Position numbers and translations under genes: made by a program | The notes under the pieces: generated by a model | Seen by the model: only the letters and a program-made list of their open reading frames with translations | What the model was told of the DNA's origin: nothing | Databases searched by the model: none | Assembly: GCA_017506865.1 (NCBI GenBank) | Contig: JAFCMP010000119.1 | Span: 168,289 to 232,288, forward strand | Reading direction: 5' to 3' | Length of the DNA stretch: 64,000 bases | From: Tribonema minus | Taxonomy: Eukaryota > Sar > Xanthophyceae > Tribonematales > Tribonemataceae | In this document: positions 12,915-63,790 of the stretch, in pieces | Layout: the number at the start of each line of letters is the position of its first letter | Position numbering within the stretch: position 1 is the stretch's first letter

Positions 12915-15900
12915 ATGGCGATGGCGATCGAACTGCCGGACGGAGTGTCTTTGGAGGCGGCGGTAGCCATCGTGATTGCGCTGCTGACAGTGGTGCTGCT
13001 GGCAGTAACGAGCAGAGATCCGAAGAAGGCGGCGCTCAAAAAGGCTCAGAAAGAGATAAGAGAGCTGTTGCAGAAGGAGAACTGTGGACCCATCTGCATA
13101 CGTCTCGCATGGCACGACAGCGGTACCTTTACCGCCGCCAAGGCTGGCCAGAGCTTTGCTTCTGCTGGTGGTGCTAATGGCAGGTGAGCATTTTTTTTCG
13201 TTTTGTCATCAAATATGAATCCGTTGTTATTTTGCGGCTCAGTTGCCGTAGCACGGCAATGCTGAATGCACAAGCTTTCTCATCCGTACATTCTACTGTC
13301 CTCAACATCACGTGGTACACCTGAGCCTCCACGTCTTACTGATGACGTGGTCTTCACGCATCTGCGTGCGTTCGCAGCATGACGCGACGGTCAGCAGGCG
13401 TTGCGCAGCGGTTGTTGTAACATGCAAAGAACATAGTTTTGATGCGCTTCATTTTGACATTACATCACATGATGCTTTGGTGTAGACGGCATCCAATGTT
13501 CTCGAATGTTGGTGGTCAACTGTTGTTGGCAGCTCATATGTCTTGATCATTCATGCCATGCTGTAACACATTACTTGAAACAATCTGGGGCACTTCAATT
13601 TTCTTCTTTATTTCACAATTTTTGTTGTCTTGTCGTTATTGTCATTCTACGCCCGCTGACTTGACAGCGCTTTTCATGTGTAGTACTTCAGCAGTAGTTG
13701 CAATTTTGTGCTTTACAAGTAGTCCGATGCGTCCCATCCTGTAGCTGTTTACTGCGATGAGCTATTAACGCCGCTGCTGAGGTAGGTGTACTGTGCCGTT
13801 TTGACCTACATAATATGGTCTGTTGTGCGCAGCTGAAACTGACAATTGGCCACTCACGAGTACAAGGCATGGCACCACAGTAGGCGGCTTATTGCTTCCA
13901 CTCTCAATACAATTAACGACCAAGAGAGCAGCACATACTGATTGATGCGCCGCCACTGGGGACCATATTCCAATCAAGAGGTGTACGAACGAGAATGAGG
14001 AAGTTAGCTGCTTCGACCTGACCTGACACCAGCGTGCATTTTACAACCAGCAGGAGCACTGCCGTGGGATGTCACGCATCTATACACGCGTGAAGTGCCA
14101 TCTGTAGTGTAAACATCATACTCCGGACTAGCGCTTTGTCTGTGCTACAAGCGCCTTATCATACGGCGCTCAGGGTACCCGCGATGCAGAGGCAAACAGC
14201 GCCAGCCGAAGGACTCAAATTTCAAAGGTGTCACTAATGGCAGGGGTCCGTGCCCGTTACCTTGTTTCAACGGGCGCATGCCACCCCATACCTATGCAGT
14301 AGCACTAATTGGACCCCTAATCTTGACCCTGATCTCAACTGCGCAGAGGTGTAATCATCGCATTTGGCATAGTCACCCCATTGTGCGTTGTGACCACATT
14401 CAGCATAGTCAATGCATAGTCACCCCATTCGGCATTGTGACCGCATCAGCATAGTCACCGCATTCGCCATAGTCACCGCATCACCGCATGCGGCACAGTC
14501 ACCGCATTCGGCGTAGTTACCTTACGGCCCTTACACAGCCGCCGCGTTCGGCAGCGGCAGTGGCAGCATGCCCAGGTGCGTCGGCAGCAATTGCGGCAGC
14601 CACAGCAGGCACGCGTGCGTTCTTACTTGCGCATGCGGCCCGCCGAACGTGCATCTAGAGCAAACCAATCAAAACTTTTATTTAATCAAATCAAACAAAT
14701 TGAAAGCATACTTTTGTGATGATCGATAGCGCCACGCGCCGTCGCTGTCGCGCGCAGCATCCGCTTCGACCCAGACATGGAGCACGGCGCGAATGCCGGC
14801 CTCAGCAATCACGATGCCGGTTCACTCGGGCACGCAGCCGTCGTCATGCGCCGCCGCTGCCAGCAGTCAAGCATGCCGTCTCACTCGCTTGCTAGCGTGG
14901 CGTTCGTCACGCGCCGTCGCCGCCGCTGTGCAGCCACTGAGGCCGCCACAGCAACCACGCATGCAGACTTACTCACTTGCGCACGCGGCCGTCATCGCGC
15001 GCTGTCGCCGTTACGTCAATCATGCACGCCGTCTCACTCGCTTGCTTGCGCGGCGTTCGTCACGCGCCGTCAATGGCAGCGGCAGCACATCCATGCGCGC
15101 CAGCGGCAATCGCGGCAGCCACAGCTCCCACGCATGCCGCCTCACTCGCGCATGCGGCCGTCGAACGTGCGGCTATGTAGAGCAAGCAATCAGAACGTCC
15201 ATTTTAACTTCGAAGTGTTCAGAGTCAAATTTCAAAAAGTATACCGTTATACAGATTTATATCGTCGCTGTTCGCGCGCAGCATCCGCTTCGACCCTGAG
15301 ATTAAGCATGGCGCGAACGCCGGCCTCAGCAAGGGCCTCAAGCTGCTGGAGCCCATCAAGGCAAGCTGCCCGACCGTGTCGTGGGCGGACCTGCTGCAGA
15401 TGGCGTCCGCGGAGTTTGTGGCAATGGCGGGCGGGCCCAGGATCGCCATGCGCTACGGGAGGGTGGACGCCGCCGGTCCCGATGACTGCCCTGTGGTGAG
15501 AGCTTTGACAAGTTCAACAAGAATTTGAAGTAACAACAATTTGAAGTTGCAGGTGAAACATGTTGAAGCTACATTGTGCAAGCGCGGCTTTGAAGGTCGC
15601 CATGCGCTACGGGAGCGTACAAGCCGCCGGGCCCAATGACTGCCCTGGTGTGAGCGCGGTAGGCTTTGTAAACTTCAACATTTCATTGAAGTTACAGCTG
15701 TCTGAAGCTGCATGACGTCAGACAGCGGGGTTCTGAACGGAGAGGGCTGTTGAAGATTGCTGTGAGGTGCGGGAGGGGTGAAATCGACGCCCTATGGTGA
15801 GCCGAATGAATATACTTCAAGCACAAGCTTGCACTTGTAGCAACCACCTTGAAGTTTGATAGATGTTTGTACTGCATGGTCTGTGGTGACGGCGGGCGGG

Positions 15901-18900
15901 CCCAGTCTCACAACGCGCTACGGAAGGGCAGATGCTGCCAGTTCGATGATGCCCTCTGGAGGGCAGATTGAAGTACTTCATTGAAGTTTCAAGAGTTTTA
16001 AGAGTGTCTGAAGCGTTGTCAAATTGGAATACTTCGAAGTAGTTCAAACTTTGTATCTGTACGGTCTCACAGGTGCCTCATTGGTGCCTCAAGCGTTCTC
16101 AGGCGCTGTGTCTTTGCGCCATTCCTGTGGTGAGCCAAACTAACTTCAACTACAAGTTGTTTCACTGGAAGTAACTTTTTGGAGTATCATGGCTGCCCTG
16201 TGACTTGCCTCATGCCGCACAGTACCACCTGCGCACCGCAAAGGTTTTGCCTCGGTGTTGTGTTAAGGCGCAATCGCCCTGTAATTCAGCTCGGCAGACA
16301 TGCTTTCAGTCAGTAACGGTGGCCGACACCTTTTTTGAAATCATGATGCCGCCAGCGGCTTGATGTCGTATGCCTGCGGCGGACGCCTTTCTAAGTACAG
16401 CAGGTTGCGTCTTTTCAGAATTCGGAGCATGATACAGCGGACGGCATTGAGTGCCAGCCTCACATACGCTGTGGCACGTACTTCAGATCACATACAAGAA
16501 ATCTTCCTCTACTTCAAGTAAAAGTAGTTTTAAAAGGCTGCTAAGCGCGCATGAGCGCACCAGGCATCATGCGACTTACACCGCGGCGGCATTGCATGAT
16601 GTGCGCCGCAAGTGGCTCAGCAGTACTCCATTTGAGCGCTGCAACGGCCTGGACGCGACGTGCCAGCGCTCAACCGTTGAGCCCCCCAACGATTGCATGT
16701 GCCATGTCCTGTAGCCATCTGGAATGAGGCCACTGTTTTTTTTGCTGAGCCGCTAACCCTGAATGAAAATCGAATCAAAAGATCGTTGAGCTCTAGGTGA
16801 CAAGGGATGGTTTTCATGTGCCTTCCACCAATAATCGTGGTCGCGGCTGCTGCAGTCATTGGCCACTGTGCGCCCACGTCACGACCGTTGGCTCAATGCA
16901 GTCAGCGGTGGCAGCAGGGCAGCATTTGGCATGTGGTTGGCAGCATTTGGGCAATCTTTGTAGACCACAACCGGTGGGATGCCGCATGTGGCGTAAAAGG
17001 ATGCCAGAGTCAAAGCTAATGTTAGGCTGTGGTTGTTGGCAACCATTGCCGACCACCAGCGGTGGGATGCGTCTTGTGTCGTGAAGAGTGCCAGAATCAA
17101 GGCCAATGTCAGGTTCAGGTCACTGCTTTTCTCGACCTCTAGGATGCTCCTTGTGGCACAGATGTGGCGACAGAGCCTGTCAAGGCTACATTGACCGCTA
17201 CTTACAAGTGCTCTGCACAATGCAGGGTGGCAGGGCGTAACGCGGACTGCTATGCGTGCGTGCGGAACTCGTCAGTACATGCATACACACCAATGCAAGT
17301 TTGTCATTTTGTGGCCTCACAGGGCTGGGCGAGCTCTGCCTTTCCCTGATGACATCGCACGGTGGCCTGCCTGTTGTGCCGCTCACTCTCATATGAATGC
17401 TGTGCATACTTGAAGTTATCTAGCGGTGGCTCAATGTGCAAGTGCAGCACCGCATCGTGCACGCTGCGCGTGCGTTTGCCAGCGCCATGCCGCTGCACCG
17501 TGGCCCACTGTTTTCTCGCTCGCTTGCAAATGGTTACCTATTGCGGCATGCATCAAGTAATCGCGCCGCGCTGTGCATCTCATGCTGCGTGCTGTGCATC
17601 TGTAGGAGGGCAACCTGCCGGGAGCGGGTGCGCCCTTTGGTGACGGCTCCAAGGACGCTGGCGAGCACCTGCGCAAGGTCTTCCACAGGTGCGTCCCCCA
17701 GAGCGCTGCCAGAGATAGAATCAGAGCTGAAGAGTTTGAGTTAGGGTTTTGCTTAGAGTCAGGGTCAGGGTTAGCCAGGGCTAAGGTTAAGGGGTAAGGT
17801 TAGGTAGCTGTAGCATTAGGAGCAGGGTGCAGGTTATGCTCAGGGACACGGTAAGGGTAAGCCCTTATGCTCCAAGGATGCCGGCGAGCATCTGCGCAAG
17901 GTCTTCCACAGGTGCGTCCCCTGAGCGCTGCCAGGTTTAGGTAAACCTTAGGATCAGGGTTAGCTTAGGGTTAGGGGTTAGGGTTTAGGGTTAGCCAGGG
18001 GTAGGGGTAAGGGGTGCAGGGTGGGGTAGGTTTAGCGCTAGGGTCTGGGTTACGGTCAGGGTCAGGGTTCGCTAGGGTAAGGTTAGAGGTAGGGCTCATG
18101 GTTACGCCACGCCTGCCGTCAAGGACGTTCGGCGGTAGAATCTATGTATGCACTTGCCGGAAAGCAGGCCTTCCGCACGTGTGCCGCGGTCTGCCGCCGC
18201 CGCGCACGGCCGTGCTGAGCACAGCCACGCTTGGACACCGCGGTGCGCGTCCTGCCGCCGCTGCGCTGTCGAGCTGCGTCGGCGCGCGCTGGGCGTGAGG
18301 CACGACGGCACAAGCGCTTATGTGTCGAATACGCCAAACGCCAGCTCAAGAGCCTCATCCTTTCATGACGCCGCCGCTATTCACATTCGTTCTGTGAATT
18401 CCTGAGGGCGTCATGCTCCGACGATGCCGCCGCCGCCGCCGGTCACATCTGTTTGTGTGAAGTGTGAAGTTTTTGTTTGTGTGAAGTTTCCCGGCGCTGT
18501 CACGCAGGAGAGGCCGCTGCTATTCACACCCATTTTGTGAATTCTAGAGCGTCATGCTCCCTTGATGACGCCGCCGCTGCCAGTCACATCCATATCTGTG
18601 AATTTTCCGCTGCTGTCACGCTGTCACCCAAGAGAATCATGCTCTCTTGACGCCGCAGCCATTCACATCCGCATGTGTGAAAATTTTCCGCCGCTGATCA
18701 TGCAGAGTGGCCCGCTGCTTTCCACATCCACCCTGTGAATTCTTGAGAGCATCATGCTTCCACGATGCCGCCGCCGCTGCTGCCGGTCACATGCTCATTT
18801 GTGAATTCTCACGGTTTGTTTTCACATGACCCCCTCAGGATGGGTTTCAACAACCAGGAGATCGTCGCGCTGAGCGGTGCGCACACGATTGGCCGCGCGT

Positions 18901-21900
18901 TCAAGGAGCGTTCCGGCACCACTCCGCACGGTGAGCTAGCTCATCAATTGTGACATTGCGGCACAGGGCGCTGTGACACTGCCCAAACTTCAACCTTTGC
19001 CTCAACCCCTACCCTAAGTTTTCGCACACGGTCAGCCGCGCGTTCAAGGAGCGTTCCAGCACCACTCCCCACGGTGAGCGAGCGTTGCGCTATATTGCGG
19101 AGCGCTGAGCTCAGATCAGGTGTAGGGTCAGAATTTTGAAACACTAGGGGCCAGGTGAGTTCAGGGTTTGGAATAACCCTTACCCTACTTGTAGTGCTAA
19201 CCCTGACCTTGACGATCGGCCGCGTGTTCAAGGAGTGTTCCGGCACCACTCCCCACGGTGAGATCGCTCACCAACTGTGATATATTGCGAAGCGCTGAGC
19301 TGAGACCAGGTTTAGGGTTAGGGTTAGGGTTGACCCCAGGGTTGTTCTCATCTTACATGGTCAGGTTGCGCGTACGTTCAGGGTTTAAAGAGCGTTCCAC
19401 CCCCCACGGTGAGCTCACCAATTGCGATATCGGAGCGGAGAGCTGTGTGCTGATTACCGCCTGAACTCTCATCTCTGCTGAAACCCTAACCCTAAGCTTA
19501 GCCCTAAGCCCACACCTAACCCTAACCTCAACCCCAACTGTCTGGTCGCGCATTGCCGGCACGGTGGTTGCTTGCGCTGCTGTTGTAGCGCTCAGGCCTC
19601 AAAACACAAGGAGGCAAAACCGGCACTTTCTGACCAATTGAGATACATTGCGGAGCGCTGAGCTGAGACTAGGGTTAGGGTGAGGGTTAACCCCAACCCT
19701 CACTGAGGGGTCAACCTAACCCGACCCTAACCCGTTGGTGGCGCATCACGCACGGTGGTTGCTTACACTGCACTGCTGTTGTAGCACTCAAGCCACAAAA
19801 CGCAGAGAAGCAAAACTGGCCTTTCTGCAGGCGCAACATTATCGCCATCAGCAGGCGGGGAGCATGCCTAGCAACTAAAACCGGAGCTGCAAACAAATGG
19901 GAAATGCTTGGCATCTGTAGTCAAACTTTCGCTCACTTTTGTTGAAGACCAAGTTGTGAGTCAAGATACATTTCACGGTTGGGTATGCTTCAATATCTGC
20001 AGCTTCTGTTGTTGCCTATCAGCAGGACATTTTTGTTTCAACGGTGGAGTTTGCCACCGGGTAGTTCCAAGAATCCAATTCTGACTGGGACCGCACCACC
20101 GAGTGAATGTGCCCTGTGTTCAGGGCGCATCGGAGCACATTCACGGCGCCTCACTCGCCACTTTAACTTTGCTATTGGGGTGTCAACCTCAACTTTGCTA
20201 CGCAGGTACACGGAGAGGGAGCCACCAAGCACATGTGCCGCGCATTCAGGTCGCCTTACTCACCACTTCAAACTTGCTGTGTTGGGATGTCAACTTCAAC
20301 TTCAACCGATGCAGGGTAGCCGGAGGAGGGCGCCACCGCGTTCAGGTGTTGATCAACGGGTGCACCGCACTTTGTCTTAACTCATCTCGCAATGCCTTGT
20401 AGAACGTTTCCGCTCACAGCTGGCTGCGATACAGGCCTCTTCAGCACTTGAAGACGTCAGCAACTGTCAGAAAAGAAACACAGCCAGAAAAGAAACACAG
20501 CCAGGTGAACAGGCACCTGTGGCAGTGGCTCCTTTTCTTTCCTGGTGTCTTGAAGTGCTTGAAGTAGACCTGCATCGCAGCCAGCTGTGAGTGTAATAAG
20601 CATCCCACAAGGCATCAGGAGAGGAGTTGAGACAAAGTGCGTTGCACCTGTCCAACAACACCTAGTACGCATGCCCCGCATTCAGGCCGCCTGATTAAAA
20701 AATCACCCTGTTTGGATGCCAACTTCAATTGGTGCAGGTTACACGGAGAAGGGCGCCACCAAGGTTTACTTTATCCGCACTTGGGTCGCCTTACTCACCG
20801 CTTCAAGTTTGATGTTGGGATGTTGATTTCACTCCAACTGTGCAGGGTTAGCGAAGAAGGGCGCTTCTCCTTCTGCTTACTCACGACTTCAAACGCGCTG
20901 TTGGAACGTCAACTTCAACTGGTGCAGGTTACACGGAGAAGGGCGCCACCAAGTACACGTGCCCCGCGTTCAGGGCGCGTCACGACGGCGCAGCAGGCGT
21001 TGGCATGCCCGGCGGCCAGAGCTGGACCCCCAAGTGGCTGACCTTCGACAACAGTTACTTCACAGTTGCGCCTGAGAAGGAGCTGCTGCGGCTCGAGACG
21101 GACAAGTGAGTCTCATATCGACACTGTTGAAGTGCCAGTGTGGAACGTTGATGATGACGCAGTTTACAGCAGCATTTGCTCTCGTGCTTGTAAGTGCGCT
21201 GAGTAGCCGATGTGTGGCAACAGTTACGATATGGTCACGCATGAGAAGGAGCTGCTGCGGCTCGACTGACAAGTGAGTCCCGTATCGACACCGTTGAGGT
21301 GCCGTTTTGAAATGCTGATGGAGATGCTGACAGCACACGTAGTGACAGCGGCGTTTGTATGCTCAATCGTAATTGCCTTTGAGCGGCGGACCTGTGCCAA
21401 CTGTTACTGTACAGATAAGCCTGAGAGGGCTCTGCTCATCCGAACTTCGATTTTCGTCGTGAAACCGCCTGCCCTGCACCTGTCATCCTCAGTGCTCATT
21501 CCTCTACGTCTCAAGTAACTGCAACTATTCGATACAGCTTGACCATGGTAAATAGTACAGTTCAGGAATTGCAGTTGAAGTTGAAAAGAAGTAGAAGGAC
21601 AGTCATTGCTGCCAAAGGGTGGCTTCAAATAATGACCATGCAGAAGTCTTGTTGGTGCTAAGGGAGCTCTACCACGAGGCTAGGTGCTTGGCGAGGGCTA
21701 GGCTAGTCAAGGCTCAAGCTGTTCTCCCACCAATGGGACTGATTGCGCAATTTGCAGCTTCTCCACATCCTCAAGTAAGTTTGCCTTAGCTACGCCCATA
21801 GGTAACCTTTGTGCCTGCTTGTTTTACTGCCTTGTGCAGTCATGCTGCCATATATGTACGGCATAATGATATTGATGTAAAACGGGCAGCCCTGTACCAG

Positions 21901-22096
21901 TACCATTCGTGCTCAATCGTTGTTCCATTCGCCCCTGTTGAATTGCAGGGTGCTGGAGACTGACCCCGGCTTTGCCCCCCACTACCGGCGCTACGCGGAG
22001 AGCCAGACTGAGTTCTTTAAGGACTACGCCGCGGTGCACAAGAAGCTGTCCGAGCTCGGCAGCAAGTTTGAGCCCGCAGGCGGCATCACCATCTGA
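12915..22096 (+). CDS. APX: L-ascorbate peroxidase, chloroplast-type core with N-terminal membrane anchor
   Basis: Exons 12915-13183, 15282-15495, 17606-17688, 18839-18930, 20928-21105 and 21949-22096 join in phase to 327 residues. The protein reduces hydrogen peroxide using ascorbate (class I haem peroxidase). The distal triad is in RLAWHD (Arg63, Trp66, His67); the proximal haem ligand is His204 in [10 protein letters not shown]; the proximal Trp/Asp pair is Trp252 and Asp260 (GGQSWT... FDNSYF). The segment between the proximal His and Trp is long and contains GGQSWT, as in stromal and thylakoid enzymes. Residues about 12-31 are strongly hydrophobic, followed by a Lys-rich stretch, so the enzyme is probably membrane-anchored at its N terminus or carries a signal-anchor for a complex plastid; no plastid motif is evident. 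Known anchored forms usually have the anchor at the C terminus. Confidence 0.93.
14372..14525. repeat. short tandem repeat in peroxidase intron 1
   Basis: Imperfect repeats of about 15-30 bases built from 'catagtcaccgcattcggc'. Non-coding. Confidence 0.65.
14758..14819 (+). repeat. copy of peroxidase exon 2 5' edge
   Basis: A cag acceptor is followed by bases reading [21 protein letters not shown], which closely matches the start of the real exon 2 at 15282 ([18 protein letters not shown]). It then dissolves into a 'gcgttcgtcacgcgccgtcgc' repeat region to about 15180. Its NHD matches canonical peroxidases better than the real exon does. Confidence 0.75.
15597..15960 (+). repeat. decaying copies of peroxidase exon 2 3' edge
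   Basis: Three successive stretches (about 15597-15655, 15755-15800, 15885-15960) repeat the 'atcgccatgcgctacggg...gccgatgactgccctgtg' edge, two of them with a gtgag-type donor. Similarity falls with distance from the real edge at 15495. They are separated by TTGAAG/CTTCAA-rich filler. Confidence 0.75.
16765..16865 (+). repeat. dispersed repeat R3, copy 2
   Basis: A partial copy in peroxidase intron 2, from 'cgaatcaaaagatcgttgag' to 'gcagtcattggccac'. Confidence 0.7.
17735..18110 (+). repeat. TTAGGG-like degenerate tract with exon 3 edge copy
   Basis: Runs of 'gggttagggtt' and variants fill this part of peroxidase intron 3. They enclose a copy of the exon 3 3' edge at about 17866-17921 (gctccaaggatgccggcgag... 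cttccacaggtgcgtccc). Similar tracts occur at 19120-19345, 19485-19540 and 19670-19740. They are not a clean telomeric array. Confidence 0.65.
18345..18800 (+). repeat. tandem repeat before peroxidase exon 4
   Basis: Four or five diverged units of roughly 70-120 bases, each with a 'cgccgccgctgc..gtcacatc' block, 'tgtgaatt' and 'gcatcatgctc'. The last unit runs up to the acceptor of exon 4. Confidence 0.6.
19024..19411 (+). repeat. three copies of peroxidase exon 4 3' edge
   Basis: Copies at about 19024-19076, 19212-19260 and 19384-19411 repeat 'gccgcgcgttcaaggagcgttcc..caccactccccacg' with an intact gtgag donor each. The real edge is 18930/18931. Confidence 0.8.
20100..20880 (+). repeat. array of copies of peroxidase exon 5 5' edge
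   Basis: At least four copies (about 20195-20255, 20305-20345, 20735-20790, 20850-20880, and a weak one near 20100) repeat the acceptor context 'cttcaactggtgcag' and the coding start 'gttacacggagaagggcgcc'. The real exon starts at 20928. The copy at 20735 is nearly identical over its first 30 bases. Confidence 0.8.
21219..21275 (+). repeat. copy of peroxidase exon 5 3' edge
   Basis: It repeats 'gagaaggagctgctgcggctcga' and a donor 'caagtgagtc' with a short deletion relative to the real edge at 21105. Confidence 0.75.
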
Positions 22097-24722: not shown

Positions 24723-24864
24723 GCTACTGCTGCCGCGCTGTAGCTCGATGCGTCGCTTGCTGTCCAGGCCCAGGTGCGTGCGTCGAGAAACTGTGCCCCG
24801 TCGGTTACAATTGAAACTAAACTGAAACCGCAAAAACTGAAACTACCACGGAGAGAGCCGGAAC

Positions 24865-25050
24865 TAGTACCAGCAGACAGAGCACACATGGCAGCTACCA
24901 GCAGACAGAGCAAGGCCAACAGTCAGAGCACACGTGCAGCAGGGAAACTTAGACCAAAGCAGCAACAGGTGGGCAACACAACAGCGGCAGCAGCAGCAGT
25001 GCGAGAAATGTTCCCGATGCGGTCTGTTCGGACGCCCAGCATGCCTGATC
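24865..25050 (+). repeat. duplicated module, copy 1
   Basis: This 5' part of the repeat-protein gene ('accagcagacagag' to 'tctgatctg') recurs, diverged, at about 31450-31622. The pair suggests a decayed second copy of the gene start. Confidence 0.65.
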
Positions 25051-25893
25051 TGACAATGTCTGATCTGACGTTCGACGTGCCGTCCAAAATACTTGATCTG
25101 ACAATGTCTGATCTGACCGGAATGATCAACGCCGAGGCGTTCGACTCAGACCTCGCGACGCCGTGCTCTGTTAGAGATGCATATGAGGAAGCTGCCCGCA
25201 GTGCTCACGAGGCGTCGAGGAGCTCGGACATTAGAGATGCATATGAGGAAGCTGCCCGTGAGGAAGCTGCCCGCAGTGCTTACGAGGCGTCGAGGATTAG
25301 AGATGCATATGAGGAAGCTGCCCGTGAGGAAGCTGCCCGCAGTGCTTACGAGGCAGCGAGGAGCATTGAAGATGCATACGAGGAAGCTGCCCGTGAGGGA
25401 AGCTGCCCGTGAGTAAGCTGCCCGCAGTGCTTACGAGGCGTCGAGGAGCTCGAACGCGACCTGTGTTAACGGTACTCCTGTGGTGCAGTGCTTGGTCGAA
25501 GCCGCGGAGGAATTCATTCAAACCTGGCGTGGATCTCCTCCAGCCGATGCCGCCGATGCCCTAGAGGACGACGTCAAGAGCCCCTTCAAAGCGACATACA
25601 GCCGCACCTCTGAGGGTTCTGGTGGTGCGACGCAAGTTACGGTGAGAGCCCCGGCAGGCACGGTGCTCACCTGCACAGAAGACGGGGCTCCCCATGCCGA
25701 CTGCAATGGCAAGATAGTCGGCCCAGAAAGTGTCATCGAACTCGATTGCACTCCCGATGCCAGGCACACAACAAAATTGAGGTTGCAAGCACGCCAGACA
25801 TCTGCCAGCTCCAAGTTCAAAATCGGGGTCTGGTATGTGCGCGCAGCACCAGCCACTGCCAGCATTAATATTGAGCTAGTACTGCGGCGCTGA
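24888..25893 (+). pseudogene. DAYEEAAR-repeat protein gene, frame broken
   Basis: It starts at ATG 24888, 165 bases from the divergent membrane-protein start, so the two may share a promoter. The N-terminal 60 residues are Gln/Ala/Ser-rich and basic. Two MSDLT-type repeats follow, then about four copies of a 20-residue acidic helical repeat (DAYEEAAREEAARSAYEAS). Near 25399 an extra g shifts the frame, and the next unit has gag-gaa changed to gag-taa. The other frame then runs 25480-25893 with a C-terminal part of about 135 residues rich in Thr/Ser/Ala and small beta-type segments, ending in a stop. The lesions lie inside repeats, so an assembly error or recent decay are both possible. No function recognised. 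Confidence 0.5.
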
Positions 25894-33297: not shown

Positions 33298-33337
33298 GGG
33301 CAGCGTGAGCTTCATACGACCAAATAGAGGATGTCAC

Positions 33338-34560: not shown

Positions 34561-34698
34561 TGCGGCCTCACGCTGCAACGACAGGTGGCGCTGAGTCAGC
34601 CGCTCTCTCTCGCTCCCCGCCGCCCGCAAACAACCGCGGCGGAGCGCATGCGGCAGCAGCAGCAGCGTGCGCCGCTGCCGCCGCGGCACCGCACTCAC

Positions 34699-35419: not shown

Positions 35420-35453
<34 letters not shown>

Positions 35454-50133: not shown

Positions 50134-50145
50134 AACGCTTTGTAC

Positions 50146-50289
50146 GTATGGACTTGTATTTATAAAGGCCCAAGGGAGGCCGGGTTGCCTATGCAATCGA
50201 AAAGCTTGCGTCAACGCAGCAGCCTAGTCTGCGCTGTGCCCTAGGAGTTTGGATACCGGCGCCGCAACACAGCCCAGCATTCGCGCTCC
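50146..50289 (-). mobile_element. LINE family B, short 5'-truncated copy
   Basis: A 144-base 3' end, nearly identical to 31970-32117 (end of the family B frame plus 3' untranslated bases). It is flanked by a perfect 12-base duplication 'aacgctttgtac' at 50134-50145 and 50290-50301. Confidence 0.88.
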
Positions 50290-50301
50290 AACGCTTTGTA
50301 C

Positions 50302-52874: not shown

Positions 52875-55800
52875 ATGGTGGCTGAAAGCGGCGGAGAACT
52901 CAGCGGTGGAGGTGTGCGCAAAGCGGCGCAGGAGCAGGACAGCGAGCACGGGCAGCATTATGCGAAGCAGCGTTGGCTCATGACTCAGCTGTACTGCGTA
53001 GCTGTCCTTGAGATCATGAGTCTGTCGACGCTGCTTCCCAGCTTCAGAGACCTGTTTGCCTCCTATGGCATGGATCTGGTGCAGCAGGGATACGTTGGCT
53101 CTGCCTCGGCGCTGTCTGCCTTCGTCATGAGCCCGATTCTGGGGAGGGCCAGCGATTCGTATGGAAGGGTGAGTCTGTAGCTGCAACAGTGATGGTGCTA
53201 TGACCTCTTGTATTAGAAATCGGGTCTGCTTTGAGGCCGCATAGCACTCTCAACGCTGCGTGCCAACAAGTGCAGCCAACGCTACAGTGCTGCCACCTGG
53301 CGAACTAACTTCATAAATTCCGTGACGGATTCAATTGAATCTGGCTGTAGTAGCAGCATCTGAAAGCAGTTGCAACTGCATGTTGCAGATTGCAGCCTGA
53401 GGCCGTGGTGGTCCTTGCAGCGTGTAGCTTCAACCACAGCTAAATCAATGATCGGAGTAGTAGTTCAACTTCAACTACATTCACTGTTGGTTGTTGCGGG
53501 AGCGCGCCATAGTGACTGCAGCTTGCAGTTGCCGCAACCTGTGCTTAGGCTTGCAACCAGCTTCAATGCCTTGAGGTTTTGCCAAGAGCTACTCCTCACG
53601 CTAGATGCGCACCAACAAGTAATGACGAAGCTGCAGCACCATGATGGATCTGCCAGGGCTATGATTTTTTGCTCAAAAGTTTTAGAAGATCATGATGCGC
53701 TTAAAAGACGGCTCAAAAGTTCCAGAAGATTTTGATGCGCACACAGCATTGGAGCCAGCAGCATTACAGCTGGTTTGCTAGAACAGGTAGACGACAAGCA
53801 GGATGCATGCACAGCTGCAGAATCAGCAGCAGCTTAATCAACACCCTACGGCTACAGACACGCATAGGCTAGCGCGCACTCTTGCACTGCCTTTGTTGAC
53901 ACTTTGATGCCCACACTATTGGCCTACGAGTCTCCTTCACTGTCAAACGACATGGGGGACTGCAAAATGTCACAAAGGGGAGCGTGCTGGCAGGTGCAGC
54001 CGTTTCGTGTTTGTAACCGCAACACGACCCTGCAGACATGGATGTGCCAACACAGCAGAGCCAGGGCCTCGCAGAGACAGACAGGGCTTCGTAGCATACG
54101 CCAACGTCCTGCAGCATACATACTCATAAGTAGAGATTGAGCCGCCAAATCGGAGGCACCGCCATCACTTTTTTAAATGTGCTGACAAGCTGCGGCCAGA
54201 GGCAGCCTACGGTACATTCAGTACTCTGCAAGCGATAGCGCCGGTTTAGAGTTAGGGCTAGGAGCGAGGTTTAGGATAAAGTTGAAGTAAGGTCTAGGAC
54301 TAGGGTTAGGGTGAGGGCAAAAGGCTTATCAGCTTTCCACGCCAACGGGTTGTTTGTGCGTGCAAACAGCAGTGCCGAGCAATCAGTGTGGCAGCGTCGA
54401 GCATGCAGGTGACGCTCCTCAAGCTGGCATCAGCGCTCAGAACTCCAACTGTTCCGCATGCTGAGCATCACCATGGCATTGCTCCCTTGCACGTGACGCT
54501 CCTCAAGTTGCCAACCAGTCAGCGCACTACAGGCTCTGCTGCTGAGCATCAGCATGGTCTTGCTCTCTGTAGCTGCGACGCTCCTCAAGCTGCCATCGCA
54601 GCAGCACTGTACACACGATTCCATACGCCCAGCATGCGGATAATGCTCCTCAAGCTGCCAGCAGCGCTCAGCATGGAATCATTCCGCTTGCTGAGCATCA
54701 CCTCGGCTTTGCTGGCCGCAGTTGACGCTCCCGAAATTGCCATCTGCGCAGCAGTACCGATGATCACGCGTGCTAACGAGCATCAGCAGGGTCCTGTCCC
54801 CTGCTGCAGGTGACTCTCCTCAAGTTATGGGAACGAACTAAAAGATTGTAGAGCGGTAGGCGACAGAGTGTGTTAGCCGTAAATGCCTTCCACCAATAAT
54901 CTGTGGTCATCCTGCACGCTGAGCATCACCACGGCTTTGCTGGCCGCAGGTGACGCTCCTGACACTGCCATTGGCGCAGCACCGATCTTCACGGGTGCCC
55001 TGCTGCACACGACGCTCCACAACTCATGGAAACGAATCAAAAGATCGTAGAGCTGTAGGCGACAAGGTGCTGTTAACCTTCAAATTGAATGCCTTCCACC
55101 AATAACGTGGTCATGCTGAGCATCGCCACGGCTTTGCTGGCCGCAGGTGACGCTCCTCAAACTGTCGGCGGCGGGCAGCATTTTGGGTGCGGCGGGGACC
55201 CTGCTGGCTCCCAACAAGTGGGCGTTCATCCTGGCCAGGGTGCTGCCTGGAATGTTCAGGTGGGGGTGACACACCACAAGTTGAAGTTTATTTTGATTGT
55301 CGCAAAGCAGTTCTGATCAGAGGGCGATTTCGCAGACTGGGCCGCCGTCTATTAGGCTTGAAGTTTGAGGTCATCTCTGTCTGAACTCTGCTGGTGGTGA
55401 TAGTGCGGGCTCATGCGTGTACATCTCGTGTATTCGCCTTTGGCGTTTGGTAGGCGTGCAAATGCCCTTCTCCAGGGCTTTCTGTGCTCTGATTTGTTGA
55501 CAGGTTTCAGGTGCACGCTGCCAGTTGCTCATATCTTGTATGGCTCGTTGAAAAGGGCAGTTTGAACGGGTGAATTTTGCAAACACTGAAGGTCATGATA
55601 ACAATACATTACTTCAAGTACGCTGTTCATGTACATGAAAGTCACAACAGGGGTAGATATGCATGCATGTATGTGCGCATGTTTGCCAGGTGCGCACTGC
55701 CGGTCATCAACCTGTGCCTCATCAACACCTGCGCGGGCCCCGCCATTGCGTGCAACCCGTCCATCATGAGTTTCCCAAACACTGAAGGTCATCACAATGA

Positions 55801-58800
55801 ATAAAAACTTCAAAAACGCCGTTCATTTACGGTTGTGTTTTCTTGCCAGGTGCACGCTGCCGGTCATTAGCGCGTTCATCATCAACACCAGCGCGGGCCC
55901 CGCCATTGCGCGCAACCAGTCCATCACGAGTCTCCCAAACACTGAAGGTCATCATAATTACAACGTACTTCTTCAAGTACACTGTTTACTACATCAAATT
56001 CAACACAGGGTATGTATGTCTGTGTCTTTTTTGCCAGGTGCACGCTGCCGGTCATCAGCGCGTACATCATCGACTTCAGCTCGGGTCCGCCATTCTCTCT
56101 CTTCGCCAAAGGCCTGACACCCTAGTGCGTCAAGTCGAATGAGCGTGCATGTCATCTATGGCGCTGACCAAGCGGTGATCGCATCATCGTGCGCTCACAA
56201 TTCAGCCACATGGTATGCATGTATGATTACCAGGTGCACGCTGCCGGTCATCAGCGCGTACATCATCGACTTCAGCTCCGGCCCCGCCATCGCGCGCAAC
56301 CAGTCCATCATAGGGTCCTCCGCGGGCATAGGGTTCGTCCTGGGGCCCGCAATTGGTGCAGCAGCGCTCGGCTGGGGCCCGGCAGTTGCCGTCAAACTGT
56401 CACTCGTTTTCAGGTGCGTTTGACGTGAACCAACGCTTGTTCAGACACGTTGCGTGTTCAGGCACATAGCTCATGAATTCCGCTGCTACACGCGAGCGAC
56501 AGATTTCAGCACGTGTAAAGCTCTATGAAGCGGCGCAGTGGTGTAGCATAGGAGCGACGTTGCAGGCACCGCGCACGTACTGCCATTTTTGTTGCACACT
56601 CCGCCGCGTCAGCGTGAGATCCCTGCCTTAACTGCCGCCGAGCTGTAGTTGTGCATCGCTGTACTCATCATCTGTGTGTTAACCACGGGTGCTTGAAGTC
56701 ACTTTCCGACACAGCACTGCTCCAGGCTCACTTGCGGTTTCACCAGCGCTGCTATTCATCCTCAGCTTTAACGGCGCGCATGACCTACTTGCACCGCATC
56801 CGACACCGACAACCTGACACTCCCTGCTGACGTTTTCATCGTTTTTTGTCGTTGGACAGCGTGCTGTCTATGATAGTGCTGCTGTTCCTGGACGAGCCCC
56901 CCCATCCCAAGGAGGGAGAGTCACAGGTGAGAACGCTCCCGCGTTCTCGGCACAAAGTAACTTGCATAGCGTCTTTGCATAGCGTCTTTGAGTCTCTGAC
57001 GTTGCAACTGTACCCATTTCTTACCTGTGCAAGCCCTGCTGCCTCCTCAGAATTTGCGCCAGTTTGTTGTCCAGAGTTGCATTCGAGCTACTGTTGTGTG
57101 GGCTGATAACCTCGGGCTAGCGTACAAGGCGCGCGCCTGCCGATTCTGTTGCTGTTGCAATGGCAGACTCGGCTTTGTTTTGTGGGCAAAAACACTGCCT
57201 GCCGCTGGTGGCTGACCATTGTTTGATGTCGACATCAAACAATGACCATTGTTTGATGTCGACATCAAACAATTACATGCGGGAGCGTACCTTGGTGGTT
57301 GAGCGTTGCTGCATGGCTGAGCGTTGCTTCACAACTGAGCGTTGCTTCATGGCCAAGCGTCGCTGCATGACTTGACGTTGCTTGACGTTGCTTGAATGGC
57401 TAAAACAGTGCTTCATTGCTGAGCGTTGCTTCAACGGCTGAGCGTTGCTTCATGGCTGAGCGTTGCTGCACTGCTGAGCGTTGCTGCACTGCTGAGCGTT
57501 GCTTTATCGCTGAGCATTGCTTCACGCCTGAGCGTTGCTTCATGTTGAGCATCAGTTCATTGCGGAACACTGCCAGATGGCGGAGCGTTGCTTCCTGGTT
57601 GAACGTTGCTTCATCGATGAGCGTTGCTTCATGGCTGAGCGTTGATTCGTCGCTGACCGCTGCTTCATTGCTGAGCGTTGTTTCAGGCTGAATGTTGCTT
57701 CATGGCTGAGCGTTGCTGCATTGCTGAGCGTTGCTTTATTGCTGAGCGTCACTGCATGCCTGAACATCGCTGCATGCCTGAGCGCTGCTACATGGCTGAG
57801 CGTCACTTCATTGCGGAACCCCTGCCTGATGGCTGAACGTTACTTCATGCCGAGCGTCACTTTATCGCTGAGCGTCACTTCATTGCGGAGCACTGCCTGA
57901 TAGCTGAGCGTTGCTGCCTGGCCTGCGCAGCGACCGGCGCAGGCGACGCCAGCCAATGGGCCTTCACTGCAACTCCAAGGGACGCATAGTACACCCTTTG
58001 CTGCTGCGAGGGAGCTGTCTGCAGCGAATGGGGCACCGAGCACCAATGGCACGTCACCGAAAGCGCAGGAGGAATTGCAACCGAAGGGGGCGGCAAGTGG
58101 GGCTGCGGGGGGAAAAGGGGGGTCCGCGATGGACCTGTTCAGGGGGGAGGGGGGTTGGTTTGTGGCTTTCCACCTGCACAACCGCTTTGTGTTCATGGCC
58201 GCGGAGTCGTCCTTGTACCAAAGGTGAGAGTTCATTGGAGTACATTTCATGTCCGCTTCAAAGTACACTTTGAAGTTGGCGTGTTGAGGTGTAAGGCTGT
58301 CTTTCATGGGAACCGCTGTCTTGCATGGGGACCGCAAGTGCCATTCAAAACGGATTGGTATCAGAGATGAGAGTTTATTTGAGTACATGTCAGAGCATGC
58401 TCTCTCGTCCTTGCACCAAAGGCCAGAGTTCATTGGAGTACATTTCAGAGCACGCTCACGTCCTCGGTTGCAAAGGTGTGAGTATATGTGAGAGTGCATC
58501 TTAGAGCACGCTCTGAAATGTGCATGTTGAAGTATCAATCTATGAGTGCACATGTTGAAGTATCAGCGCATGTATACTTCAAAGTGTATCATGCCCGTAC
58601 TTGTCAGTCATGGACACGCTCTGCAGTAGACCATAAACTTGCGCAGTATTATTGAACAGATGTGGAATTCCACCTATATAACCTCTGTACATCAGAAGCG
58701 ACCTTGTATAGGAGGTGAGCAGGTCTTGATTGCATTCCATGTACATTAAATTGTGAACTGTGCTTCGTTGCACTTTAAGCACTGTCACTCAAGTTCGTGC

Positions 58801-61800
58801 TTTGTACTTTATGTATACTTCACGTACTTGTCAATACTTTAAGGCATGTGTATGGGTACCTGGCAGCTAACGGTATGCTGCACGACTTTGTGTTGCCTGT
58901 GTGCCTCTTGCAAGGGTTGAGGTTAGGGTAAGGTTCAGCCTGGGCTTCTAACGTCCACTGCCAATACCCACGACCGCATCTTACGATTTCTACATACACG
59001 TGTCTTCTGTTTGTTGGTGATCACTTCCCAGTCACTTTTTCATTTCCACAGGCCTTTTGTTTGTTTTCTGTGCTCACAGAATGCAAGCGCCCAGCACAGG
59101 GCACACAGTGAGGGCTGGGGTGACAGTGCACAAATTTGCAACAACATCAATGCACAACTCCAAACATCACCGCACAAAGTGATAGCAACTCCAACTGCAC
59201 GACGTTTCCCGTTTTTTGGTGTGCTGCGCAGCTTGCAAGTGTTCAGCACGGGGCGGTTAGGGCTCAGCAGACCCCAGGCGGGGCTGCTCATCTCTTATAT
59301 TGGCCTCACGGGGGCGCTGGCCCAGGCTTTCATCGTCACGCGATGTGAGTTCAACTCCGGTGATGTAACTTCAACCTGAGTGTTGGTTACAAACTTCAAC
59401 ACTGATGTCAGCAAGTCACCTCGTACATTCGCCTCCCGGGGGCGCTGGCGCAGGCTTTCATTGTCATGCGATGTACGCTCAACTTTGGTGATGCAACTTG
59501 ACCTGAATGTTAGGGTTCCGATTTCATTATGGTAGAAGTAAGTCAGCCCTGGCGCAGGTCTTGATGGTCACACGATGTGAGTGCAGCTCCAGTAATGTAC
59601 TTCAACAAGATTCCGTCTAAAGCTTCAACCTGATGTCAGTAATTTATGTAGTCTTACCGTTCTGGCGCGCAGGGCTTCCTTGAGAATCTGCTGATGTATT
59701 CTGAGTCTAATGTTCTCAAACCGGCTATGTGACCTCAACTGAAGTGTATCGCTTCATCTTTACCTTCAATATTACGTAACAGTCATGAAAGCATGCAGCG
59801 TCCCTCATAATCAGCCTCACGCGGGCCTTCATCGCGCGTTGTGAGTTCAATCCTGCACTGTAAGCCCCTTGACTTGTGTACTCGAACAACTGGTGCAACA
59901 ACTGATTTAAGGAACCGAAAACCTTGCATGCATTTATAAAGTTCATGCTGTGCTCAGCTTATCAGACGCATGCCCCCTCTTTGTTGCACCATCCGCATGG
60001 CAATATGACAATACCCCCTGGGAGCTTGCCTCCCGTACACACCACGTGATGTGTGTTTTCTGCGCAGCTGACCTCACTCATCAGGCGGCGTGTTGCAGAT
60101 GTAGGCAAAGCGCCAGAAGCGATGAGTACGAATCCGCCAGTGCACAGCTTGAGCTCACCTGGCGCTTGCCCCCTTTCCGTCACATCTTCAAGGCACTAGG
60201 ATGGCTCATTTTGCGCGCTTGCATCCGATCGTCACACGAGGGTCAGGGTTAGGGTTACCCACCCAACGCTTGTTGACTACGCGTCTGCTGCTTGTTCTTC
60301 CGCGCGCGCGTCTGTCTCAGACGTGAGCAAGGCGCCGGAGATGATGGGTACCTGGCCCTGGCGATGTCAGACGCGCCAGCCCGTGCCCAGCTGAAGCTCA
60401 CCCGGCGCATGCCCCTTTCTGTCACACCTGTGCGCGGCACTACTTAGATTTGCTCGGTTGGGCGCTCGTATCCCCTTGACATGCTCCGCACGACGTTCGT
60501 GTACCACGCGTCTGACGCTTGTTTTCCTCGTGTGATACTGTCTCAGATGTGAGCAAAGCGCCGGAAATGACGGGCATGGCCCTGGCGCTAGCGGGGTCGC
60601 TGCTGGGCTACCTGTCGTGGTCCGTCACCGGCGGCGTGAGGATGCTGCTGTGCGTGCTGGCGGTGCTGACGCTGTCCAGCAATGCCTTTCTGGCACTCAA
60701 CAAAGCCAGGTGCGTGCTGCGTGGAGTTGGCACGTCTATCATATCAAAATACATGAGCAATGCTTTCCTGGCTCGTTTTAGCCCCCAGGTGCCTTTGTTA
60801 CGCGAGCGCGGTCGTCAGCGAACTAGGTAGGGTGATGTCGCTGGCGGTGCTGACGCTGTCCAGCAATGCCTTCCTGGCACTCAACAAAGCCAGGTACGTG
60901 CATGTCAGCGCAAGAGTTGGCTTGTCAACGTTATCTTATAAATAGTATCATACTATCAATTTATAATATACATCTTTCGTCAAAAGGCTTTTGAGATTTG
61001 TTTTCCTGGCGCTTGACAGCCCCCACGTGCCTGTGGTACGTGAGCATGTTAGTCAGCGAACGAGGGGGGTGTCGCTGGCGGTGCTGACTCTGTTGAGCAA
61101 TGCCTCTCTGGCGCTGAGTAACGCCTGCAACTCCTGCTGCCGCAGTACCGCTCACTCCAGTCACACCCTCAACACCTTCTGCTGCAGAACATCGTGACGT
61201 CCCCCCCCCTCCGCACTTGCTTGCCAATCCCAACTTCCCCCTACACCTCACTGCCCGCTCCCCCTGCCAATTTCACCCCCCTCCCTCCCCCTGCTTGTCC
61301 TAATCACCTCACCCCTCACCTCCCTCTGCCGCAGCGTACCGTTCACTCCCTTCCAATCCTCATCCCTTTCTGCTGCCCACGTACTGCCAAACCTAACCTG
61401 GTCCTGCACTGCGTGCCAACTTCAACTTTAGTCCACAGCTTCAACCCCTTGCCTGCCCACCCTTCTCACCACTGCCCCCAAACTCTCCCTGTCGCAGCGT
61501 TTTGTGCCGCGAACTTTCAGTCTTCGCCCCTATCCCCTGCTGCTGGCAACTCCTCGCTTACCCACAACTACGCTTGCAACCGCCTCTGCAGCACCGCATG
61601 GTGCTGTGCACTGCTTGCCGATTTCAACTTCCCCCTACATGTACCCCACCGGCCGCTCTCGGCCACATTCAACCGCCTCCCTTGCTGCCACATCGTCACT
61701 CACCCCAATCACACCCTCAATCGCTGCTGCGCAAATCTGCTGCAGCGCATCGGGCCGCGCGTCCCGCGCCGCATGCCAATTTCACCCCCCCCCCTACATG

Positions 61801-62128
61801 CACCTCACTGCCCCCGCCCCCTGCCAACTTAAACCCCCTCCCTCCCTGCCCATTCTCATCACCACTACCCCCAAACTCTCCCTCCTGCCGCAGCGTATCG
61901 CGCCGCGCGCCGCACTCCCTGGCGGGCACAGCGATGGGGGTCCTAGCGGGGGTGGACACATTCGCGCGCGCGTGCGGGGGACCGGTGGGGGGTCACATCT
62001 ACCTGGCCAGGGGACCCGCTGCGCTCGCCTTCTCGTGTGCAGGAATGTGCAGCTATATTGTCGTGCTGATCGGCACCGCGGCGGCGCGGCGGCGGCAGCA
62101 GCAGCAGCAGCGGCCGAAGGCGGAATGA
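52875..62128 (+). CDS. major facilitator superfamily transporter
   Basis: Exons 52875-53168, 55147-55259, 56234-56413, 56860-56926, 57943-58223, 59232-59344, 60547-60709 and 61894-62128 join in phase to 481 residues. A polar N terminus of about 34 residues precedes the first helix (YCVAVLEIMSLSTLLP). Motif A, the family signature between helices 2 and 3, spans the exon 1/2 junction: G90-RAS-D94-SY-G97-R98. GSSAGIGFVLGPAIGAA (helix 5, motif C-like) is in exon 3. Exon 5 codes for the long central loop (Ala/Gly/Pro/Ser-rich, about residues 210-290). The C-terminal six-helix half includes SYIGLTGALAQAF and GMALALAGSLLGYLSW. A cytosolic tail RRRQQQQQRPKAE ends it. The layout resembles the drug:proton antiporter and TetA-like group. 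Substrate unknown; membrane not determined. Confidence 0.92.
54400..54985 (+). repeat. seven copies of transporter exon 2 5' edge
   Basis: Copies near 54410, 54493, 54575, 54645, 54725, 54806 and 54955 repeat '(gcaggt)gacgctcctcaagctg' from the start of exon 2 (real start 55147). They alternate with 'gctgagcatca.c..ggc.ttgct', making irregular units of about 70-190 bases. Confidence 0.85.
54829..55115 (+). repeat. dispersed repeat R3, copies 5 and 6
   Basis: Two copies (54829-54907 and 55026-55115), each directly following an exon 2 edge copy or its remnant. They lie about 197 bases apart and were probably multiplied together with the array. Confidence 0.75.
55690..56110 (+). repeat. three copies of transporter exon 3 5' edge
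   Basis: Copies start at 55690, 55850 and 56038, each after 'tgccag'; the real exon starts at 56234. They repeat up to about 75 coding bases (CTLPVISAYIIDFSSGPAIARNQSI). Copies 1 and 2 then share 'ccaaacactgaaggtcatca' and 'acttcaagtac'. None has a donor after the coding stretch. Confidence 0.88.
57218..57273. repeat. 26-base perfect palindrome, present twice
   Basis: 'attgtttgatgtc' followed by its exact complement occurs at 57218-57243 and again at 57248-57273, separated by 'gacc'. It lies in transporter intron 4. Confidence 0.92.
57290..57905 (+). repeat. minisatellite of about 18-20 bases
   Basis: About 30 imperfect units of 'gctgagcgttgcttcatg' fill the end of transporter intron 4, up to the acceptor of exon 5. 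Units vary in length and sequence. Confidence 0.85.
58390..58480 (+). repeat. copies of transporter exon 5 3' edge
   Basis: Two copies of 'tcgtccttg.accaaaggtgagagttcattggagtacattt' (near 58408-58455 and, weakly, 58458-58485). The real edge is 58223. Confidence 0.72.
59410..59850 (+). repeat. copies of transporter exon 6 3' edge
   Basis: Copies at about 59415-59475, 59548-59585 and 59805-59850 repeat 'ggcctc.cgggggcgctggcgcaggctttcatcgtca.gcgatgtgagttcaac' with growing decay. The real edge is 59344. Confidence 0.8.
60090..60440 (+). repeat. two copies of transporter exon 7 5' edge
   Basis: Copies at about 60098-60200 and 60318-60440 repeat 'cagatgtgagcaaagcgccggaaatga.gg' and share a further 60 bases ('cagcttgagctcacc.ggcgc.tgccccttt') not present in the real exon (60547). 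Confidence 0.8.
60744..61125 (+). repeat. copies of transporter exon 7 3' edge
   Basis: 60836-60899 is nearly identical to the end of exon 7 ('ctggcggtgctgacgctgtccagcaatgcctt' through 'aaagccaggt'). 61068-61125 is more diverged; fragments lie near 60750 and 60990. Confidence 0.83.
61139..61790 (+). repeat. copies of transporter exon 8 5' edge in a C-rich array
   Basis: Acceptor-plus-edge copies ('ctgccgcagcgtaccg.tcactcc' type) lie near 61139, 61330, 61493 and 61745; the real start is 61894. Between them a 'tgccaatttcacccccctccc' unit recurs every 150-200 bases. Confidence 0.78.
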
Positions 62129-63045: not shown

Positions 63046-63225
63046 CTATTTTCCGAGCATCGACAGCATCACCGCCATGACGGTCCACATGCGGTTCTCC
63101 GCTTCCGGGAACACGACGGAACGGTCCGAGTAGAAAACCTCGTCGTCAACCTCCTCCTTGTGACGCGGCAGGCAGTGCATGAAGACGGCTTCCGGAAGCG
63201 CCTTGGACATGAGAGACGTGGTGAC
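63046..63225 (-). CDS. OTC: ornithine carbamoyltransferase, last exon (gene continues beyond window)
   Basis: The 59-codon minus-strand exon starts after 'cgcag' and ends at TAG. It reads [40 protein letters not shown], then [36 protein letters not shown] holds the conserved HCLP loop, whose Cys and Leu bind ornithine. [15 protein letters not shown] is the usual C-terminal helix. The wording ([12 protein letters not shown]..S.VFPEAENR) is closer to animal and fungal enzymes than to plant ones. The enzyme makes citrulline from ornithine and carbamoyl phosphate, usually in mitochondria. The carbamoyl-phosphate-binding half is not in the window. Confidence 0.9.
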
Positions 63226-63346
63226 CTGCGTGTTCAAAGCGACGATATAGGGGGATGAAATCACAAATTGGAAGTAGTTTATGACCGTCGCGATTGAAAT
63301 TGGCGCATGAAATCGACCAACACACTGTAGTGAGACATTCGAGGCA

Positions 63347-63790
63347 TCTGCAGTGCATGAAGACGGCTTCCGGAAGCGCCCTGGACATGAGGGATGCGGT
63401 GACCTGCATGTTGAAACAATGATATAGGGGGAAGACATTACACATTGGGAGTAGTGATGTAAATAGGAGAGGATCGTCATGGTTGTAATCGAAAATCCTG
63501 TGTTTGTTGGGTAGGGACCAGTAATTGTGAGGCATGAATGTGATGTACACACCAGAGTGACGCATTGAAGACATCTGCAGTGCATGAAAACAGCTTCCGC
63601 GCGGTAGTGCCTTGGACACGAGGGACATGGTGGCCTGGGCCCACAAAACCAGTGAATGACCAAGGGGAAATTCAACACAACATCATGAGTGGATTTACAC
63701 ACGAGAGATCAGGGCTGGTGGCGCAGGTATCCTCTGACACCCTGAAATGGAACGGTCAAAGCATTCGCAGTGCATGCAGACAGCGGCCGG
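63347..63790 (-). repeat. three copies of the OTC last-exon 5' edge
   Basis: Copies at 63347-63415, 63575-63640 and 63745-63790 repeat the start of the last exon (tgtccaaggcgcttccggaa / gccgtcttcatgcactgc). The first two share the same change after 'cactgc' (agatg). The first keeps its 'cag' acceptor. They lie about 215 bases apart. Confidence 0.85.

Follow-up and report, generated by a model that had tools for sequence, protein, structure and literature searches.

Local duplicates in introns of the yellow-green alga Tribonema minus include copies of the introns' own exon edges

Genes and copied exon edges in the window

Tribonema minus is a yellow-green alga of the class Xanthophyceae, in the PX clade, with a genome assembly of 158 Mb in 554 contigs. 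The stretch analyzed here, called the window, comprises the last 64,000 nucleotides (contig positions 168289-232288) of a contig of 232,288 bases. Introns in the window carry nearby copies of the exon edges that they adjoin. These copies occur in genes for an ascorbate peroxidase (APX), an MFS transporter and an ornithine carbamoyltransferase (OTC), and in a minus-strand gene to which no family was assigned. The gene models, in window positions, are as follows.

12915-22096, plus strand: APX gene, six GT-AG exons
12915-13183, 15282-15495 (or 15492), 17606-17688 (or from 17609), 18839-18930, 20928-21105 and 21949-22096, plus strand: APX exons
52875-62126, plus strand: MFS transporter gene, eight exons, Pfam MFS_1
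52875-53168, 55147-55259, 56234-56413, 56860-56926, 57931-58223, 59232-59344, 60547-60709 and 61894-62126, plus strand: MFS exons
63055-63225, minus strand: last coding exon of OTC, acceptor at 63225, Pfam OTCace at 72.8 bits
36243-48079 (approximate), minus strand: gene of unassigned family, earlier labeled a transcription factor, modeled from codon-usage exons and self-comparison
36324-36828, 38275-38916, 40226-40637, 40687-41987, 42061-42615, 43141-44171, 44197-44928 and 47429-47825, minus strand: arrays in that gene, from self-comparison

Splicing of the APX gene has four stop-free solutions, with one-codon differences at two sites. The model is 96% identical to P0001, a transcript-derived protein of a relative, over all 327 amino acids, and the intron copies are therefore missing from that relative's APX protein. 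The spliced MFS model matches MFS_1 with 122 bits over profile positions 1-344 of 347; two exon frames taken singly score 25.1 and 19.4 bits. A protein search with this model gave no relative at E<=1e-60, and it is backed by Pfam and by weak PDB matches. The last OTC exon matches ornithine transcarbamylases in PDB, with a best E of 2.6e-19. A preliminary description of this DNA had listed a protease and a transcription factor among five affected genes. No protease was identified, and the transcription factor label finds no support in Pfam, given that no family was matched in the three exons of the minus-strand gene that were scanned. A search of the Rfam database returned no match at gathering thresholds.

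Copies in the adjoining intron were found for 6 of 10 edges in APX and 5 of 14 in the MFS gene, and the single OTC edge tested, the acceptor of the last exon, has two intronic copies. In the minus-strand gene 12 of 16 approximate edges are copied on the intron side, a count that is flattered by the use of codon-usage exons and of the best of three candidate sites. Together, 24 of 41 edges are copied in the four genes, which makes plausible the earlier figure of about 29 edges in five genes, although the list behind that figure was not reproduced. The copies in the three genes with assigned families are given below, with distances in bp and identities at the edge unless stated otherwise.

14556-14808, plus strand: copy of the APX exon 2 start, decoy AG kept, exon-like part from about 14758, distance 524, edge 90%
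15597-15712, plus strand: copy of the APX exon 2 end, decoy GT, distance 154, 83%
17869-18067, plus strand: copy of the APX exon 3 end and 157 bp of intron, offset 223, 75% over 204 bp, edge 94%
19023-19321, plus strand: two copies of the APX exon 4 end, distances 143 and 327, 94% and 90%, both with decoy GT
20150-20763, plus strand: three copies of the APX exon 5 start, distances 190, 613 and 722, 98%, 80% and 89%, all with decoy AG
21218-21320, plus strand: copy of the APX exon 5 end, distance 167, 80% over 105 bp, edge 92%, decoy GT
54400-54967, plus strand: copies of the MFS exon 2 start, distances 197 and 425, 94% and 88%
55571-56094, plus strand: three copies of the MFS exon 3 start, distances 196, 384 and 544, 98%, 88% and 79%, each with decoy AG
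59416-59642, plus strand: two copies of the MFS exon 6 end, 86% and 80%, both with decoy GT
60276-60363, plus strand: copy of the MFS exon 7 start, distance 226, 90%
60840-61115, plus strand: two copies of the MFS exon 7 end, 96% and 85%
63359-63403 and 63586-63632, minus strand: two intronic copies of the OTC exon start, scores 70 and 39, the nearer after CAG and the farther after GGC

By self-comparison, the region at 14556-14808 is 72% identical over 270 bp to 15075-15332. The copies lie on the side of the edge that had been claimed for them; in the minus-strand gene the wrong-side score was 20 or less at 14 of 16 edges, and 28 and 65 at the other two. Tandem Repeats Finder has no row at the copies of APX exon 4 (19023-19321) or of MFS exon 3 (55571-56311), unlike what is expected of a classical minisatellite, and does list other arrays, such as 36324-36749.

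Copies and duplicates in a wider sample of introns

The sample beyond the window consists of two gene families, CCT and kinesin, and six random stretches, and is not the whole genome. The CCT family was picked when no copies were yet known beyond the window, and kinesin after copies had been seen in CCT. Gene models were built from all 56 family matches for CCT and from 53 of 132 for kinesin, those within the examined loci. Six of 39 intron calls were left out for a weak splice score or a profile mismatch, and the resulting 33 introns, with 66 edges, were selected by gene family alone. A set of 38 introns (76 edges) adds five from APX. A set of 51 introns (102 edges) was obtained with APX, CCT3, MFS and a gene on contig C135 completed, such that two partial introns on contig C5 gave way to a full CCT3 model. 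The nine exons of this model encode a protein of 546 amino acids, with 100% identity to the annotated CCT3 of Tribonema minus. The 51-intron set is flattered, given that copies prompted the completion of CCT3 and of the C135 gene, and that APX and MFS come from the original finding. In the edge test, 45 bp of exon per edge were aligned to the adjoining intron, and a score of 36 was taken as positive.

The copying of exon edges is confirmed and extends outside the window. Among the 33 family-chosen introns, 15 of 66 edges are copied, in 12 introns, as compared to 12 of 837 exon-internal segments (outside APX), such that edges are the more commonly copied in this sample. With APX included, 21 of 76 edges reach the threshold as compared to 12 of 885 exon-internal segments, and for these 38 introns the threshold was never reached with reverse complements (0/76), dinucleotide shuffles (0/3040) or the introns of other genes (0/693). 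The 51-intron set has 59 copies at 32 of its 102 edges, and 21 of its 78 edges outside the window are copied. The suggestion that this is a genome-wide mode of intron growth has as its basis two gene families, six random stretches and one window. An asymmetry between donors and acceptors, at first 14 of 38 as compared to 7 of 38, was rejected when the larger set gave 19 of 51 and 13 of 51 (Fisher p 0.29); Fisher values on the 51-intron set count overlapping segments as independent and are indicative only.

The copies were also said to leave decoy splice sites behind, and these are mostly intact: among copies with a mappable edge, 31 of 34 at donors retain GT and 21 of 23 at acceptors retain AG. 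In a trimmed count, the decoy GT is kept in 30 of 32 copies, as compared to 107 of 131 for GT elsewhere in the copies, and the decoy AG in 19 of 21, as compared to 139 of 163. The decoys are neither destroyed nor demonstrably preserved. Because their splice dinucleotides stay intact, the outermost site must be chosen by context. In CCT3, 6 of 16 edges have copies, and the donor of exon 5 has six, all with GT; the protein is still identical to the annotated one. The preliminary description also had similarity decay with distance, which is mostly so. Of the 16 edges with several copies, 12 show a negative rank correlation between identity and distance, and at 11 the closest copy is also the most similar one, a pattern to be expected if copies are added serially at the junction. 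Exceptions are the donors of exons 5 and 6 in CCT3.

Copying restricted to edges is ruled out as the sole process, given that 45-mers from intron interiors are duplicated as well (192/1661 rightward, 194/1648 leftward). Serial duplication across exon/intron boundaries therefore stands in that the copies are mostly head-to-tail, and fails in that edges are not the source as such. Among the nearest edge copies (n=28), the median spacing, or unit, is 150.5 bp and the median exon part is 57 bp, and 19 are contiguous by the measure (u+v)/P >=0.8. Along the gene, duplication stands at 14 of 38 at the donor edge and first intron bases, at 0 of 36 at 60 bp inside the downstream exon and at 1 of 27 at 105 bp inside the upstream exon, a fall-off to be expected if units of about 150 bp straddle the junction. 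The nearest copies of 45-mers in the 51 introns (n=431) are offset by 90-240 bp in 298 cases, by less than 90 bp in 36 and by more than 240 bp in 97, in a scan that could detect offsets from about 45 bp. Inverted pairs were absent from sampled stretches L066, L067, L068 and L070, and six were found in L069.

The apparent excess at edges is at most modest once copies are matched for age. Counted by hand, 22 of 102 edges have a copy of at least 90% identity, as compared to roughly 12-17% of segments from intron interiors. Copies at edges should diverge about half as fast as intron-intron pairs, because the exon partner is conserved and just one partner decays freely. Much of the apparent edge excess would then reflect the longer visibility of edge copies.

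The enrichment of duplicates in introns is a stronger fact than the copying of edges, and was absent from the preliminary description. Local duplicates cover 6,432 of 20,898 bases (30.8%) in the 33 family-chosen introns, with 190 of 1253 45-mers duplicated, and 36.8% of intron bases in the flattered 51-intron set. In the flanks of ten CCT genes, cut into intron-sized pieces, they cover 42 of 13,026 bases (0.3%), with 5 of 728 45-mers duplicated; these five have offsets of 34-84 bp, all short of the 90-240 bp class. When the window apart from its four genes is taken in full, duplicates cover 1,135 of 30,442 bases (3.7%), with 56 of 1965 45-mers duplicated; many of these 45-mers have an offset of 424-435 bp, which matches the spacing of a repeat at 1243-2096. 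This repeat consists of adjacent direct copies of about 430 bp that are 91.7% identical. The offset class of 90-240 bp accounts for 130 of 1253 45-mers in introns as compared to 10 of 2693 in the flanks and the rest of the window, and near-identical pairs for 22 of 1253 in introns as compared to 0 of 728 in flanks. Among the family-chosen introns, none of the five below 300 bp has a duplicate, and all five of at least 1000 bp have one.

Probable growth of introns, its possible causes and rival explanations

Introns of Tribonema minus probably grow by repeated local duplication, mostly head-to-tail and typically in units of 90-240 bp. The duplicated unit would lie inside the intron or across a splice junction. 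With a unit that straddles the junction, the new copy would carry a second intact splice site, the transcript would still be spliced at the outermost site beside the intact exon, and the protein would be unchanged while the intron became one unit longer. The head-to-tail form, the size range, the enrichment in introns, the intact decoys and the unchanged proteins of CCT3 and APX (the latter via the transcript of a relative) are established on this sample. The copies might arise from staggered breaks or nicks that are filled in and rejoined, and be tolerated where splicing removes the product. Exon definition, in which exons are recognized as units, could make splicing pick the outer site, and units whose exon part exceeds about 60 bp would be lost more often, as they would be mistaken for exons.

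Filling and rejoining of breaks has a described counterpart in small tandem duplications, which form where CST-Pol alpha fills in broken ends whose 3' overhangs are complementary, and the ends are joined (Schimmel et al. 2021, PMC8355091). Those duplications are likewise direct and head-to-tail, and the article proposes a role for them in genome expansion. A break-and-fill process fits the head-to-tail copies in Tribonema minus, although the unit here is larger: the published duplications are described as mostly below 100 bp (PMC8355091), as compared to the median of 150.5 bp and the typical range of 90-240 bp. The copies here also differ in being concentrated in introns, and are known from sequence alone.

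Several observations weigh against growth by head-to-tail duplication that is particular to introns, of which the size difference from the published duplications is one. Nine of the 28 nearest edge copies are not contiguous. The exon part exceeds 60 bp in 9 of 28, as compared to 17.0 expected by blind placement (P=0.0016, 5000 simulations); we read this deficit as a loss of copies that splicing would recognize as exons, and it may instead be a placement bias. No duplicate was found in 15 of the 33 family-chosen introns, and near-identical pairs occur in the rest of the window (18/1965). The non-genic control is small, with 13 kb of flanks and 31 kb of window, and a first window control (19/2416, none near-identical) was picked after density tiles had been viewed and omitted the 430-bp repeat and a coding array. 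The rest of the window partly has predicted exons (6045-9810 and 23.4-29.5 kb) and may hold genes with duplicate-free introns. The contrast weakens in five random stretches that lack annotation, to 66 of 672 as compared to 51 of 1206 (L069, with no exon predicted, was left out), and missed exons are a likely, if unproven, explanation. Gene flanks, which should include untranslated regions, show no duplicates of the 90-240 bp kind, which disfavors transcription alone as the cause. Finally, the use of splice sites was judged from protein records rather than RNA reads.

As to why duplicates are scarce outside genes, we think that intron-linked DNA damage in transcription or splicing is the most likely cause, followed by faster turnover of non-genic DNA. 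Introns may, as a tentative proposal, form a separate mutational compartment, in which breaks tied to transcription or splicing are patched in a way that adds tandem copies of 90-240 bp almost solely to introns and their edges. If so, about a third of intron sequence would be visibly self-copied, and splicing would operate amid multiple intact copies of the sites that it uses. It is somewhat doubtful, though possible, that tandem duplication is instead ordinary, neutral and genome-wide, and that non-genic DNA loses its duplicates through rapid replacement by mobile elements. Among short insertions in the human genome, small tandem duplications are said to be the most frequent kind (PMC8355091), the window has the near-identical repeats outside genes noted above, and the contrast in random regions is just 2.3-fold; such turnover sits poorly with the rarity of 90-240 bp duplicates outside genes (10/2693, as compared to 130/1253 in introns) and with the lack of any near-identical duplicate in the ten flanks. 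Selection for longer introns, with duplications arising everywhere and favored where length aids exon recognition or expression, is unlikely. Duplicate content does correlate with intron length (rho 0.62, 51 introns), and introns are also long in Ectocarpus, with an autosomal median of 524 bp (PMC12477816), but duplicate-free introns of 179-300 bp exist, such as CCT3 intron 1 (258 bp), and neutral duplicates should still appear in non-genic DNA.

It seems very unlikely that selection maintains the decoy edges for a function, such as that of spare or stepwise splice sites. The retention of decoy GT and AG would fit such a role, as would the similarity among copies of one edge, which is 85.5% in the exon-derived part as compared to 74.5% in the flank (higher in 37 of 43 pairs), and the frequency of indels, 0.45 per 100 bp in edge copies as compared to 1.59 in interior copies. 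Against this, the trimmed counts of decoy and other dinucleotides are too few to separate, shuffled flanks already align at about 70%, and copies are lacking at 70 of 102 edges. If a conserved exon is copied serially, this alone predicts up to a two-fold difference, and such copying confounds the comparison between copies. Selection on the decoys was rejected, given that their conservation per base is not clearly above that of GT and AG elsewhere in those copies. An origin of the arrays in assembly error or collapsed alleles has next to no probability; nothing was found in its favor. Collapsed repeats are an unlikely source because the edge copies average 90.3% identity, and these copies have graded identities and occur in 12 of 21 gene stretches.

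Introner elements also bring large-scale, intron-related growth, with algae among their hosts, and form families common to different genes. In Tribonema minus, edges match their own intron only, and none of 693 comparisons of edge segments with other introns reached a score of 32. Tandem exon duplication copies coding sequence beside itself, whereas here it is usually one exon edge that is copied, with a median of 57 bp, and the CCT3 copies are absent from the protein. Closer is the gain of introns by tandem genomic duplication, described by Yenerall and Zhou 2012 (PMC3443670) and Lehmann et al. 2010 (PMC2891723), in which, as those articles present it, AGGT is duplicated within an exon to give a new intron. 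In both cases a local copy carries splice-site sequence, one copy becomes intronic and the protein is unchanged (for CCT3, by protein records). Tribonema minus differs in that existing introns are lengthened, often repeatedly, both at their junctions (in 12 of 33 family-chosen introns) and inside. Intron gain by tandem duplication is thus already known. In the open-access literature searched, no report was found of introns that lengthen by duplication over a splice junction, nor of existing introns that grow repeatedly in this way.

Ectocarpus, a relative within the PX clade, also has unusually long introns (PMC12477816). A comparison of green algae of the core-Reinhardtinia, with Ectocarpus as a further example, leaves open the cause of atypical intron lengths (PMC8226300). 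Tandem repeats in Ectocarpus are given as even across site classes, by Tandem Repeats Finder and RepeatMasker (PMC12477816), which is not informative on the present question, because Tandem Repeats Finder misses the MFS exon 3 array here. How introns lengthen is an open question, and in these genes the steps of growth can be read from sequence against a conserved exon. The enrichment in introns would be the new element, if it is true genome-wide. Introns with copied edges are also natural tests of splice-site choice, as in CCT3 exon 5, where six copies follow the donor and the protein fits use of the outermost site.

Other repeats

Telomere-like TTAGGG/GGGTTA repeats are the most enriched 6-mers in introns as compared to non-genic DNA, with clusters in 7 of 51 introns. 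They were seen in introns of APX, of MFS and of the loci C7:48798, C522:805859 and C516:748854, and no cluster was found in five non-genic stretches of the window or at 34-48 kb. These repeats were considered as a cause of the duplications and rejected; TTAGGG is enriched in introns, yet clustered in few of them.

Within an intronic copy of the minus-strand gene, at about 40953-41530, lies a block of GGAGTCGGAGTCG repeats with, by eye, inverted ends (GGGGTTATCACGACTCC ... GAGTCGTGATAAACCC), which could be a small mobile element. Intron 4 of the MFS gene has two exact 30-bp units at 57213-57273, which look self-complementary on inspection, and after them an array at 57296-57917 with units of 18 bp. 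A short sequence, AAGATCGTAGAGC...CCTTCCACCAATAA, and variants of it recur, by eye, at about 16780, 37930, 54850 and 55040, and are possibly a dispersed short element.

Self-matches in stretch L069 (C511:1300001-1310000) number 113 direct and 6 inverted, many of them at offsets from 0.7 to several kb, and no exon is predicted in it; the stretch may represent a gene in which an exon-intron unit was multiplied. An array of about 66-bp units at 25184-25449 lies partly in an open frame at 24744-25409 and is possibly protein-coding, with a unit size unlike that of the intron duplications.

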